DNA of 64,000 nt from Promethearchaeota archaeon (lineage in GTDB: Archaea > Asgardarchaeota > Lokiarchaeia > Sigyniarchaeales > SOKP01). Positions 35,799 to 43,672 of the stretch are shown piece by piece (position 1 is the stretch's first letter; every line of letters starts with the position of its first letter). The notes under the pieces were generated by a model. The model was not told the DNA's origin. It saw only the letters and a list, made by a program, of their open reading frames with translations, and did no database searches. The position numbers and the translations under genes were made by a program. The stretch is from the NCBI GenBank assembly GCA_011364975.1, contig RDOE01000002.1:1-64000 (forward strand). The letters are read 5' to 3'.

Positions 35799-36902
35799 TT
35801 AATAATTTGAAGGAGTCTTTGTTTTAATTTTATATTTTGGGATTTCTCTTACTTTTCTTAATTCTCTTTCAAAATCCTTCTTTTCTTGTAAAAATCTCTC
35901 TTTGTCTCGATCTAATTTCTCTCTTTCTCGTTTAATTATATTTTTTTCACTTTCAATTCGAGATTTTTCATTTTCTAATCGCTTAAATTGATTATTTAAT
36001 TCTTTTAATTTATTTTCTGAATTACGAATTTTATGTTCTAATGAAAAGTAAGTATCTTCAGCTTTAGGAACCTTGTAATTTAATTCCTTTAATTTTGCTT
36101 CTTGTTCTTTTCTCTTTCTTTCGAGGTTCTTTAATTCATCTTCTAGCTTGTCTTTAAATTTCTCTAATTCCGTTTTTTTCTTTTCTACTTCTCGGTTTTT
36201 AAGGTTTAAGTCTTTCTTTTTATATTTTACTCCTCGCTTTTCTTCTTGTAATTTTCTTTTCTCATCTTCAATTCGATTTCTTTCATCAATAATTTCTCTT
36301 TTCAAATCATTAATCTCTTTGTCTAAATTGTCTCTTTCTCTAGTTAGACTTTTTATTTCATTTCTTAACCGCATTAAATCGTTTTCTAGCTTTTCAATAG
36401 TTCGTTCTAATGCTTCCTCTCGTCTCTCCATTCCAGGTATTTTAGTTTTAATTTCCTTTATACGGTTTTGTGCTCCTTCTTTTTCTCTTTCTAATAGTCT
36501 TTTTTCCTCGGTTAAGTTTTCTTTTAATCGCTCTAATTGTTCTTGATATGCTCTTAAGTCTGACTTTTTTTGATTTAACTCTCTTTCTTTTTGATCAATC
36601 TTATTTCTACTCTCATATATTACATTTTTCATCGCATCCATTTCTTGCTTTAACTTCTCGCGCTGATCGAGTAGATCTCTGACTTCAAGTTCTTTTTCTT
36701 TTCTTTTATGTTCTAAATTTTTAATGTTTACTTGATAGTCTTCAAATTTCTTTATAACTCTTTCCCATTCGGTTTTTTCTCTGTTTAATTTAATTCTTTC
36801 TTCCTTAATTTTTTTCAATAATTTCGAATCTGGAATGCTTTCTATACTTTCTTCCGGTGTTTTCTCTCGAATTTGAAACTTTGGAATATTATTATCAGTC
36901 AT
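35799..36902 (-). CDS. Long coiled-coil protein
   Basis: Near-continuous charged heptads over about 300 aa. Confidence 0.85.
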   Translation of the reverse strand: MTDNNIPKFQIREKTPEESIESIPDSKLLKKIKEERIKLNREKTEWERVIKKFEDYQVNIKNLEHKRKEKELEVRDLLDQREKLKQEMDAMKNVIYESRNKIDQKERELNQKKSDLRAYQEQLERLKENLTEEKRLLEREKEGAQNRIKEIKTKIPGMERREEALERTIEKLENDLMRLRNEIKSLTRERDNLDKEINDLKREIIDERNRIEDEKRKLQEEKRGVKYKKKDLNLKNREVEKKKTELEKFKDKLEDELKNLERKRKEQEAKLKELNYKVPKAEDTYFSLEHKIRNSENKLKELNNQFKRLENEKSRIESEKNIIKREREKLDRDKERFLQEKKDFERELRKVREIPKYKIKTKTPSNY

Positions 36903-37517: not shown

Positions 37518-38339
37518 TTAGCTTTTTCCATTAATTTTTTTTCTGGTAGGAATTAGAGCTAATTCATCATCATCTTCAATATTGTAGTCAATAATTTTTA
37601 AATCATCATCTAACAAGATTCCTCCAGAGGAAATTAGAAAACCATCTGGATTATAATCAAATAAAACACCTATTTTCTGTTTGATTATATTTATCAATTC
37701 CGATGTATCAATTATCATTATTTTCGTTTTCTCACCAGGTTCAATTAATGATCGAACATAAACACGTATTTTCTCATCAATTTCAACAATTCTTTTTGGT
37801 GGGGTATAATTTATAGGATCGTCTGTGACACTTCTGTTTTTTATCATAGTTTCAATTAGTTGAATTCTCTCATCAGGATCGAAGTATAATAATTCTCTAA
37901 TGAAAAAAATTTTATCCATTTTTGAAAGTCCCAATAGGTTTATTTTCTCTAAATCTTCTTTTTTAAATACAGAAAAGATATAGTCATTAATTTTTGGAAT
38001 ATCTTCAAATGATTCATTTGAATCAGCATAACTATCAATTAAAGGATTTGCCTCAAAGTAGTCTTCAATAAATTGATTAGCTAGATTTTTTAATGATTTC
38101 TTTTGAGGTTGATATTTTTGTTGAGGTAGCGCTTTTTTCTTTCCTAAAAACTTATATGAGCTCTCTTTTGACTGAATAATGGTATAAGCAGTACTAGTAG
38201 ATAATACAGCTACACTACTAATAGTTAAAAAGAGATATAAAGGAATACTCTCTACCCTCGAAAGGAACAATATTATATAAATACAAGTTACAACAATGTA
38301 GAGAGTTATTAAACCAAATGCTCTATTTTTATTTCTCAT
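37518..38339 (-). CDS. Two-TM membrane protein with C-terminal ubiquitin-like domain
   Basis: N-terminal TM pair; C-terminal KIRVYVRSLIEPGEKTKIMIID...SSGGILLDDDLKIIDYNIEDDDELALIPTRKK aligns with the two Ubls. Confidence 0.75.
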   Translation of the reverse strand: MRNKNRAFGLITLYIVVTCIYIILFLSRVESIPLYLFLTISSVAVLSTSTAYTIIQSKESSYKFLGKKKALPQQKYQPQKKSLKNLANQFIEDYFEANPLIDSYADSNESFEDIPKINDYIFSVFKKEDLEKINLLGLSKMDKIFFIRELLYFDPDERIQLIETMIKNRSVTDDPINYTPPKRIVEIDEKIRVYVRSLIEPGEKTKIMIIDTSELINIIKQKIGVLFDYNPDGFLISSGGILLDDDLKIIDYNIEDDDELALIPTRKKINGKS

Positions 38340-39357: not shown

Positions 39358-39690
39358 ATGAGTTTTGACAACGATTTTGATGAAGAATTAGAGCCTGTTA
39401 AATCTAAAACTCCATCAAGTAAAACACCCACAACAGGTAAAAAGTTGACTTTATACTTTATGTCAACTATTGGTCCTGGTGAAAAGAAAGAGAAATTAAC
39501 AGTGAATGACGCTAACCGTGTAAGTGATATCAAACAAACATTAGGAAATTTATTTGGACTCGATCCTGATGAATTTCACCTTTCATCTGGTGGAGTAACT
39601 ATGGATGAAAGTAATCAACTAAAAGATTATAATGTTAATGATGGCGATGATATCCTTCTGATCCCAGCGAGTACTGCGGGATACTTTTAA
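39358..39690 (+). CDS. Ubiquitin-like protein 2; tail STAG-YF
   Basis: LTLYFMSTIGPGEKKEKLTVND...HLSSGGVTMDESNQLKDYNVNDGDDILLIPASTAGYF. Confidence 0.9.
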   Translation: MSFDNDFDEELEPVKSKTPSSKTPTTGKKLTLYFMSTIGPGEKKEKLTVNDANRVSDIKQTLGNLFGLDPDEFHLSSGGVTMDESNQLKDYNVNDGDDILLIPASTAGYF

Positions 39691-39774: not shown

Positions 39775-40998
39775 TTGGATAAGGATTCAGATTTTTTTGC
39801 AAAAGGAATGTCAGCGGAAGAGAGAGATCTGTATGATCGCCAATTTCGTTTAGAAGGATGGTCTCAGAAATTGGTAAAAAACTCGAGAGTCTTAATAGCA
39901 GGTGTTGGTGGATTAGGTTGTGAAATTGCAAAAAATCTAGCGATGTTAGGAGTAGGTCATTTAGATCTTGTTGATTTAGACATTATTGAGCATTCTAATT
40001 TAAATCGTCAAATTTTATTTACAGGCGCTAAGTTAGGGGCACCAAAAGCAATTGTCGCGGCTCAAAAATTAACCGAGATTAATCCAAATATTGTTGTGAA
40101 AGGATATCATTCTTCTTTAGAACGGTTAGACCCTGCTTTATACTATGCTGCTGATGTTATTATTGGAGGCCTTGATTCAATGAATGCCCGCTTGAATTTA
40201 AATGCTCAGTGTATACGCTTTAGAAAGCCGTTTGTAGATGGTGGAGTATCTGGTTATCATGGGCATATGTATTCGATCTTTCCTTATCAAAATGCTTGTT
40301 ATGAATGTAATCCACTTCCAGTATCGGAAAGTGATGAAATGGCGGCCTGTACTGTAGTAGGGGTTCCTCGAAAACGTATTCATTGTCTTTTTAAAGGAGA
40401 TATGGCCTTTAAAGAAAAATTTGATAGAGATCCAAATCCAAAAAATATAACAGATATTGAATTTATTCAAAAAGTTGCAAATGAATTAGTAAATAAACAT
40501 AATTTCTTACCAGAATATACAATAGATGATATTGTTAAAATCATTAATCGCCACGATCCTGGGATCATCACGATTAATGCGGTAATATCTGCTTTAGAAT
40601 CTCATGAGGCTGTTAAAATATTGCATTGGAAAAAAGGTCATAAGGGTTTAGGACACCCTATTGCGAGTTATGTAATATTTAATGCAATGACAATGAAACT
40701 TTATCACATAGAAAAGAAGAGAAATCCAGAATGTTCTCAATGTGGTAAAAATACAAGGCGTGTGGTCATAAAGATGAGAGCTCAATCACCATGTTTGAAT
40801 ATAATTCGAACATTAAAAAAGAATGGGTTTGAATTAGAGCCTGAATTTGAACCAGTTCTAACCCTGCAAGATTATAATGATATCTTGGTTTTAGATTTAG
40901 AGCAGAGTTTGATTGAGAATGGTTTGAGGAATTACGAATTTTTAACTGTTGCAGGGTTTAAGGGTGGAGAAATTTATGTTACCTTAAAATTAATTTAA
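39775..40998 (+). CDS. Ubiquitin-activating E1-like enzyme (UBA3/UBA2-like)
   Basis: DRQFRLEGWSQ; GVGGLGCEIAKNL; LNRQILF; GLDSMNAR; catalytic AACTVVGVPRKRIHC; Zn CYEC/CSQC; C-terminal UFD-like region. TTG start after aaggtgata; GTG 39766 is alternative. Confidence 0.9.
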   Translation: MDKDSDFFAKGMSAEERDLYDRQFRLEGWSQKLVKNSRVLIAGVGGLGCEIAKNLAMLGVGHLDLVDLDIIEHSNLNRQILFTGAKLGAPKAIVAAQKLTEINPNIVVKGYHSSLERLDPALYYAADVIIGGLDSMNARLNLNAQCIRFRKPFVDGGVSGYHGHMYSIFPYQNACYECNPLPVSESDEMAACTVVGVPRKRIHCLFKGDMAFKEKFDRDPNPKNITDIEFIQKVANELVNKHNFLPEYTIDDIVKIINRHDPGIITINAVISALESHEAVKILHWKKGHKGLGHPIASYVIFNAMTMKLYHIEKKRNPECSQCGKNTRRVVIKMRAQSPCLNIIRTLKKNGFELEPEFEPVLTLQDYNDILVLDLEQSLIENGLRNYEFLTVAGFKGGEIYVTLKLI

Positions 40999-42475: not shown

Positions 42476-43672
42476 ATGGTAAAAAAGAAGGGAATAGCAA
42501 TAATATTTATTCTATTTCTCCTAATAGGACTTATCCATGGTTTAATTTCAATTTCACTAAATATTTCTTTAACCTGGATATTAATTGGATTGTGGATAAT
42601 AGTTTCCTTAAAAATTATAGAAAATATAAGAAGACATCGCGAGTTTAATTCTCCTCATAATACTGCCTTTTTTGTTGTAATCCCTTTATTCATGGGGATT
42701 TTTTATTCCATTTGGGGGTATTTTACGGGTATTTTTGGAGAAAATCTTATCGAAGGTTCGAATCTTTATTTTAGTGGTTGGAGTCTTATTTTTGGATTTC
42801 CTTATGTAACATATGGTTCCTACTCATTATATCGTTGCTTTAAGAAATATAATGTTATTTATTTTGGGGCAAAATCTATAAAAGCTAAGACTTTTGGATT
42901 TATTTTAGCTTTTGTGGTACTTAGCTTTATTATAACTTATTGGATAATATTTTATTCAATATTTGATTATTTTGAGACAATATTAATACCACTTCATTTG
43001 TCGTTAAATCTTAATCTTTTAATATTATTTATTAGTTCTATTTTAATATTAACTATATTTGGATTTTTTGCTTCACAGAGAACCCTACCTGCATTAACTA
43101 ATGATTATATAGAACAACGAACGAGAAAAATAAATTCTTTAGCGAATGCTTCACCGTCATCTTTGCCCAGAACTCAGAGACGACAAGTAACAAATAGACA
43201 CTCAATCCAAACGCCCTCCAGTAAAACTGAAACTATTGCTTCAAGAACTCGAACTAATTCATCAAGAACTACTCCAACCTCTCAAAGAAAGACTCAAAGG
43301 ACCAAGATAACTTATAAAACGAATTCAACAAGAAAAACCTCTGGAACATCACAAAATCGAGGAAAAAAAATGCGAAATTTAGATATATACAAACCTATAG
43401 CAGCATTACTTTCACCAGAAGATTTTAAATGTATTTTCTGCTTTAAATTACCAAAACTCCCCGAAGATAGAAGTAGAGGTATCATTTTATGCCCAAATTG
43501 TAAATATCCTGCACATGCAGATGAGTTCAAAGATTGGGTAAGAACTTCGAATCTCTGTTCAAGATGCAGTACACCAATTTCCTCTAGCTTCAGAAACAAT
43601 CCTAAAATTATTAGCGTAAAAAATTATATGGTAATTTATAAATACTTTTTAAACAAGAAAAATAAAAAATAG
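42476..43672 (+). CDS. Multi-TM membrane protein with C-terminal RING-like zinc domain, candidate E3
   Basis: Several TM helices, Ser/Thr/Arg-rich linker, CIFC-x16-CPNCKYPAHADEFKDWVRTSNLCSRC. Confidence 0.8.
   Translation: MVKKKGIAIIFILFLLIGLIHGLISISLNISLTWILIGLWIIVSLKIIENIRRHREFNSPHNTAFFVVIPLFMGIFYSIWGYFTGIFGENLIEGSNLYFSGWSLIFGFPYVTYGSYSLYRCFKKYNVIYFGAKSIKAKTFGFILAFVVLSFIITYWIIFYSIFDYFETILIPLHLSLNLNLLILFISSILILTIFGFFASQRTLPALTNDYIEQRTRKINSLANASPSSLPRTQRRQVTNRHSIQTPSSKTETIASRTRTNSSRTTPTSQRKTQRTKITYKTNSTRKTSGTSQNRGKKMRNLDIYKPIAALLSPEDFKCIFCFKLPKLPEDRSRGIILCPNCKYPAHADEFKDWVRTSNLCSRCSTPISSSFRNNPKIISVKNYMVIYKYFLNKKNKK

Follow-up and report, generated by a model that had tools for sequence, protein, structure and literature searches.

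The window, a 64,000-nucleotide stretch of DNA from a Promethearchaeota archaeon genome (3.74 Mb in 200 contigs), harbors two ubiquitin-like (Ubl) modifiers, a membrane-anchored Ubl paralog and a series of genes for conjugation-type enzymes (Table 1). Translation of the open reading frames gives C-termini of ...IPASTAG-YF for modifier 1 and ...IPASTAG-LKC for modifier 2; both reading frames are real, and the ends are those given in an earlier, sequence-only reading of this DNA.

Table 1. Coordinates of the Ubl genes, the adjoining enzyme genes and selected residues in the window.
Feature	Position	Strand	Description
Ubl modifier 2 (paralog), 140 aa	37078..37500	+	longer acidic N-tail; end DGDDILLIPASTAGLKC*
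Membrane-anchored Ubl paralog	37518..38339	-	hydrophobic N-terminal segments, C-terminal Ubl domain; AG lost, ends IPTRKKINGKS
Ubl modifier 1, 110 aa	39358..39690	+	acidic N-tail with two KTP motifs; residues 29-103 form the beta-grasp core; end DGDDILLIPASTAGYF*
Codons Ala107-Gly108	39676..39681	+	correspond to ubiquitin Gly75-Gly76; no exception among the 142 AG-bearing homologs
Dispensable C-terminal tail Tyr-Phe	39682..39687	+	homolog tails vary, 0-7 aa
UBA3-type E1, 410 aa	39766..40998	+	adenylation domain, Zn Cys4, C-terminal ubiquitin-fold-like domain; PF00899 E 6e-57
E1 Tyr169	40270..40272	+	gate position by alignment; Arg190 in UBA3, Gln in UBA1
E2 conjugating enzyme, 175 aa	41091..41618	+	HPN motif at 82, single cysteine Cys99; PF00179 E 3e-25
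Rpn11-type JAMM metalloprotease, 273 aa	41625..42446	+	Glu115, HSH-x7-SxxD at 178-191; PF01398 E 6e-14
Membrane protein, C-terminal CxxC-CxxC-H-CxxC RING-like zinc domain	42476..43672	+	adjoins JAMM, conserved; weak RING_16 match

Modifier 1 matches the ubiquitin family PF00240 (E 9e-7, 29.1 bits against a cut-off of 25.4), and hhalign relates its profile to that of ubiquitin with a probability of 94.8%. Its structure model (pLDDT 80 on average and above 90 in the core) finds Caldiarchaeum ubiquitin as its best Foldseek match, with ISG15 and ubiquitin also among the best. The beta-grasp fold and the sequence similarity are those of ubiquitin/NEDD8-type Ubls, but where that family ends in a C-terminal Gly-Gly, the AG-bearing copies end in Ala-Gly. 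The tripeptide KTP, which occurs 11 times in the open reading frames of the window (2.9 expected), is found in the N-tails of both modifiers and at either end of an adjacent coiled-coil protein (35799-36902, minus strand), and is a possible modification or recognition motif.

The Ubl gene is followed by genes for the E1, the E2, the JAMM and the membrane RING-like protein, an order that is conserved across families. Of the 106 Ubl copies with room for an E1, 66 have one immediately downstream, the other copies being extra paralogs. The E1 carries the adenylation motifs, the catalytic cysteine in a CT motif and the C-terminal ubiquitin-fold-like domain of canonical E1s. Its catalytic Cys195, within ACTVVGVPRKRIHC, aligns to the catalytic cysteines of SAE2 and UBA3, the four predicted zinc cysteines are Cys 178, 181, 323 and 326, and Cys195, the zinc cysteines and the adenylation residues are invariant. 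The sequence-only reading had called this enzyme UBA3-like, an assignment supported both by the family profile, whose best solved relative is UBA3 (E 7e-51), followed by UBA1 and SAE2, with UBA5 far weaker (2e-23), and by the structure model, whose best fold match is again UBA3 (E 3e-29). No gene for a partner subunit, as in a heterodimeric E1, is present in the operon. The JAMM combines Glu115 with the zinc-site motif HSHPSYGCFMSRED and Rpn11 similarity, its best solved relative being Caldiarchaeum Rpn11 (CsRpn11), and is proposed here as a putative Ubl-processing and deconjugating enzyme; the RING-like membrane protein is a candidate E3.

In order to compare C-terminal ends, homologs were gathered from related genomes (178 distinct proteins) and searched for a proline, three free residues, any residue, a glycine and at most nine more residues, the penultimate position being left open. 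The terminus P-x3-A-G followed by 0-7 residues was matched by 142 of these proteins; the residue preceding the glycine is alanine in every one of the 142, and none has Gly-Gly. At positions equivalent to ubiquitin 71-76 the family has P (142), A/V/S/H/T/E/I/F, S (141), T/I/V, A (142) and G (142). What follows is variable: 75 of the 142 copies stop exactly at the glycine, and tails, of 0-7 residues, take 48 different forms. Orthologs more than 90% identical differ only in the position of the stop codon after the glycine codon (GGA|TAC TTT TAA vs GGA|TAA); in the DNA of close orthologs, tails resemble small displacements of the stop codon just past this glycine. The predicted functional end is Gly108 preceded by Ala107, matching ubiquitin Gly76 and Gly75. 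The single-Gly end proposed earlier from two sequences is thus conserved on alignment of C-termini from related genomes; the removable tail fares less well, being variable and dispensable as supposed, yet missing from over half of the AG copies and so not universal. A frameshift in this copy among homologs ending in Gly-Gly had been raised as the case against a single-Gly end: Gly-Gly proteins do exist, but as a separate ubiquitin family rather than as orthologs, and a frameshifted or mis-assembled Gly-Gly terminus is ruled out by the 142 independent AG copies.

The AG family is found in Loki-, Hel-, Sif-, Borr-, Sigyn- and further Asgard classes, and the Ubl family was matched in 87 of 197 sampled genomes (in two of these weakly); it is Asgard-wide, though patchy. 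Among named genomes, close relatives of the E1 occur in Lokiarchaeota, among them the cultured Lokiarchaeum ossiferum (L211; Ubl tail PASTAG-I), and in Sifarchaeum, Borrarchaeum, Sigynarchaeum, Prometheoarchaeum and Helarchaeota. The literature searched, which was thin in subscription journals, contained no previous account of the single-Gly end.

The Ubl domain also occurs at the C-terminus of long proteins. An STAG-ending domain is fused to a ∼590-amino acid protein (L105:241-2019), the rest of which is a HerA/DUF87-type ATPase; two further long Ubl ORFs (L107, L121) likewise carry it C-terminally on ∼590-amino acid proteins, a 577-amino acid protein with a weak VWA match has it as well (L049:11122-12852, minus strand), and L065 encodes a comparable long Ubl fusion of 644 amino acids.

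A PF00240 search showed that the same genomes encode a second ubiquitin family, which ends in Gly-Gly (e.g. TRTTGG, ARTKGG, ATQAGGK); its representative in the window's own genome lies at L123:8409-8663 and ends ATQAGGK. ThiF proteins number six in this genome and E2s two; a 530-residue E1 lies on the same contig as the second E2. Because a Gly-Gly ubiquitin and a second E1/E2 are present in the same genome, the window operon represents a second pathway, and not a degenerate copy of a sole one. The second own-genome E1 (L147; contig C132:20638-21384, plus strand) has a ∼70-residue insertion immediately following its gate motif (GHVQIVIPEG) and close to the zinc cysteines.

The two kinds of E1 differ at the gate. 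In eukaryotes, a pocket containing UBA3 Arg190 or the corresponding UBA1 glutamine reads Ubl residue 72 (alanine in NEDD8, arginine in ubiquitin) and separates both pathways (PMC3731359). In the alignment to UBA3 the gate position falls on Tyr169 of the window's E1, and the 3dbr chain, whose title names the Arg190Gln mutant, carries its change at exactly that column. The gate residue is tyrosine in 78 E1s of the window type and glutamine in 11 of 11 E1s adjacent to Gly-Gly ubiquitins. Wherever a Gln-gate E1 has an adjacent ubiquitin, that ubiquitin has Arg72, while the AG Ubls paired with Tyr-gate E1s have A/V/S/H/T/E/I/F at position 72 and never arginine. The highest-scoring PF00240 ubiquitin of the survey (L132:6078-6365, minus strand) ends in VRSIAG plus eight residues, combining Arg72 with Ala75, and has its own E1 (Gln gate), E2 and JAMM alongside. 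Glutamine pairs with Arg72 even at this AG-ending locus. Over all these pairs the gate therefore tracks residue 72, as it does in eukaryotes. Because the pattern runs along E1 lineages, it reflects few independent evolutionary events; a single clade of AG-linked E1s is not rejected (p-AU 0.32), though long branches keep the tree from establishing it. As judged from these residues, the pairing of a tyrosine gate with non-Arg72 and of a glutamine gate with Arg72 indicates two pathways that would be insulated from one another.

These observations bear on the simplest alternative, namely that the Ubl is the published Asgard ubiquitin with a neutral Gly75-to-Ala replacement, involving neither a separate pathway nor any functional meaning. 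Its match to PF00240 agrees with this, as does the fact that operons of this type have already been described as archaeal ubiquitin operons in Asgard archaea (PMC9192718, PMC5654768). However, these genomes also contain a distinct Gly-Gly ubiquitin that has an E1 lineage of its own, the alanine is invariant across classes, and the E1 gate differs; we regard a neutral replacement as improbable.

We give distinctly less credence to the idea that the Ubl is a non-conjugated docking or scaffold domain with a chemically idle tail. Some Ubls, such as Hub1, do act without conjugation, and the AG end is missing from a related class of paralogs that keeps the Ubl domain: the 36 homologs without AG are all long paralogs, mostly membrane-anchored. 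As these proteins retain the Ubl fold, AG is dispensable for folding; free-standing copies always keep it, and the long membrane-anchored class often loses it. Moreover, tail conservation is strongest exactly at Ala-Gly and ends at that glycine, and active sites are intact in the adjoining E1, E2 and JAMM. Within the membrane-anchored class, AG has been lost in the window's genus and is retained by longer homologs in some related genera (one copy, L053, ends SSTAGFF).

A sulfur carrier of the ThiS/MoaD/Urm1 kind, forming a C-terminal thiocarboxylate, is less probable again: MoeB and ThiF belong to the same superfamily as the E1, but the nearest relatives of the Ubl and the E1 are ubiquitin and UBA3, respectively, and four further ThiF proteins in the genome are available for that role. 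To our knowledge, sulfur carriers end in Gly-Gly and need neither an E2 nor a RING protein. A search with the ThiS-like family PF14453 gave no match but is uninformative, as its controls were silent too.

The sequence-only reading had likened the terminus to the UFM1 precursor. The layout is indeed alike: the end of UFM1, IIPRDRVG-SC (in letter-for-letter agreement with a solved chain), shares with the STAG Ubl the IP-x4-G spacing, the single glycine and, in the human precursor, a two-residue tail. A relationship to UFM1 is unsupported by profile, E1 or protease. In hhalign, UFM1 reaches 1.9% where ubiquitin reaches 94.8%; fold searches return ubiquitins as the best matches of the Ubl model; and the UFM1 family PF03671 was above its cut-off in none of 149 Asgard genomes, in a search that had no true positive control. 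Nor is the machinery of the UFM1 type, the E1 being related to UBA3 rather than UBA5, the E2 ubiquitin-type, and the operon protease a JAMM; UFSPs are cysteine proteases. The window's genome does encode a UFL1-like protein (contig C162:8603-9337, plus strand; 794-amino acid open frame, E 5e-15), and a published survey finds UFM1, UFC1 and UFSP2 to be restricted to eukaryotes and UFL1 and DDRGK1 to be of Asgard origin (PMC10183829). UFL1-like proteins are, however, common in the same order and are also present in genus g6, where no intact STAG Ubl occurs; their co-occurrence is therefore uninformative, and we claim no link to a UFM1-like E3. That the Ubl is a genuine archaeal ancestor of UFM1, of one family with it beyond the layout, is the least probable of these alternatives and largely refuted.

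We consider it probable that the operon encodes a dedicated Ubl conjugation pathway, running in parallel with the cell's ordinary Gly-Gly ubiquitin pathway. The Ubl would be synthesized either with ...S-T-A-G already at its end or with a short extension, such as YF or LKC, which the Rpn11-type JAMM would trim, by analogy with Caldiarchaeum Rpn11, which removes the pro-ubiquitin tail after Gly-Gly in a system whose E1 refuses untrimmed ubiquitin (PMC5654768, PMC6043591). As a Giardia ubiquitin-eS31 fusion with alanine at 75 is reported to be uncleaved (PMC11354881), trimming after Ala-Gly cannot be assumed. The conserved active sites suggest that the UBA3-type E1 would adenylate the terminal glycine following the invariant alanine and that its Cys195 would hand the Ubl to Cys99 of the E2, which, probably with the help of the membrane RING-like protein, would attach it to target amines; the JAMM may later remove the Ubl from these targets as a deconjugase. 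For tail-less copies, deconjugation alone of the two JAMM roles is needed. Fidelity would reside in the E1 pocket that reads residue 72, with Tyr169 facing a non-arginine residue here and glutamine facing Arg72 in E1s of Gly-Gly ubiquitins, and the Ala-Gly end may provide a second difference between the pathways.

With somewhat less assurance, though on balance in favor, we propose that Asgard cells had two insulated ubiquitin pathways before eukaryotes arose, kept apart by a tail code (Arg72 with Gly-Gly versus non-Arg72 with Ala-Gly), by the E1 gate (glutamine versus tyrosine) and by matching JAMMs, and that a canonical cascade for a single-Gly modifier would be old and stable. What appears to be new is not the E1/E2/JAMM cascade, a canonical type already known, but its putative use on a single-Gly Ubl.

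Gly-Gly has been taken as a near-defining mark of modifiers for canonical E1s. Human E1s select Gly75 strongly, and in human enzymes other residues at this position are strongly selected against and interfere with transfer by E2 or E3 (PMC3731359); a cascade working with Ala75 therefore has to recognize the tail in another way. An Asgard family with invariant Ala75 would mean that the Gly-Gly rule is not a chemical necessity, and offers a natural system for finding what reads residue 75 in E1, E2 and JAMM. The pairing of a Gln/Tyr gate with residue 72 suggests that insulation of the ubiquitin/NEDD8 kind was already present in the archaeal relatives of eukaryotes. Genome surveys, DUB assays or proteomics methods that require Gly-Gly would miss such a system, the trypsin remnant on lysine not being Gly-Gly. 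Because the cultured L. ossiferum carries it, the system is testable.

Among known systems, the Caldiarchaeum subterraneum operon (Ub, E1, E2, RING, Rpn11) shares with the Asgard locus a set of parts encoded in one operon and a pro-Ubl tail, but CsUb matures to Gly-Gly, whereas the Asgard Ubl ends in an invariant Ala-Gly, is often tail-less, and coexists with a separate Gly-Gly ubiquitin in the cell. The NEDD8/UBA3 (NAE) pair is similar in that the E1 is closest to UBA3 by profile and fold and the Ubl has a small residue (alanine) at 72; in contrast, NEDD8 ends in Gly-Gly and UBA3 is a heterodimer with APPBP1 whose gate is Arg190, where the Asgard enzyme has Tyr169. The known single-Gly modifiers UFM1, ATG8 and ATG12 use non-canonical E1s, whereas the Asgard E1 is of the canonical type. 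The E1 of ATG8 and ATG12 is the non-canonical ATG7, and both rely on special E2s and on the cysteine protease ATG4; the UFM1/UBA5/UFC1/UFSP system differs in its unrelated sequence, in an E1 without a separate Cys domain and in processing by cysteine proteases. In type II CBASS, Cap2 and Cap3 provide E1/E2 and JAMM-type protease activities that act on a single C-terminal glycine or alanine of a CD-NTase, with a variable penultimate residue (PMC10097602). There, however, the modifier is an enzyme rather than a ubiquitin fold, and a single polypeptide combines E1 and E2.
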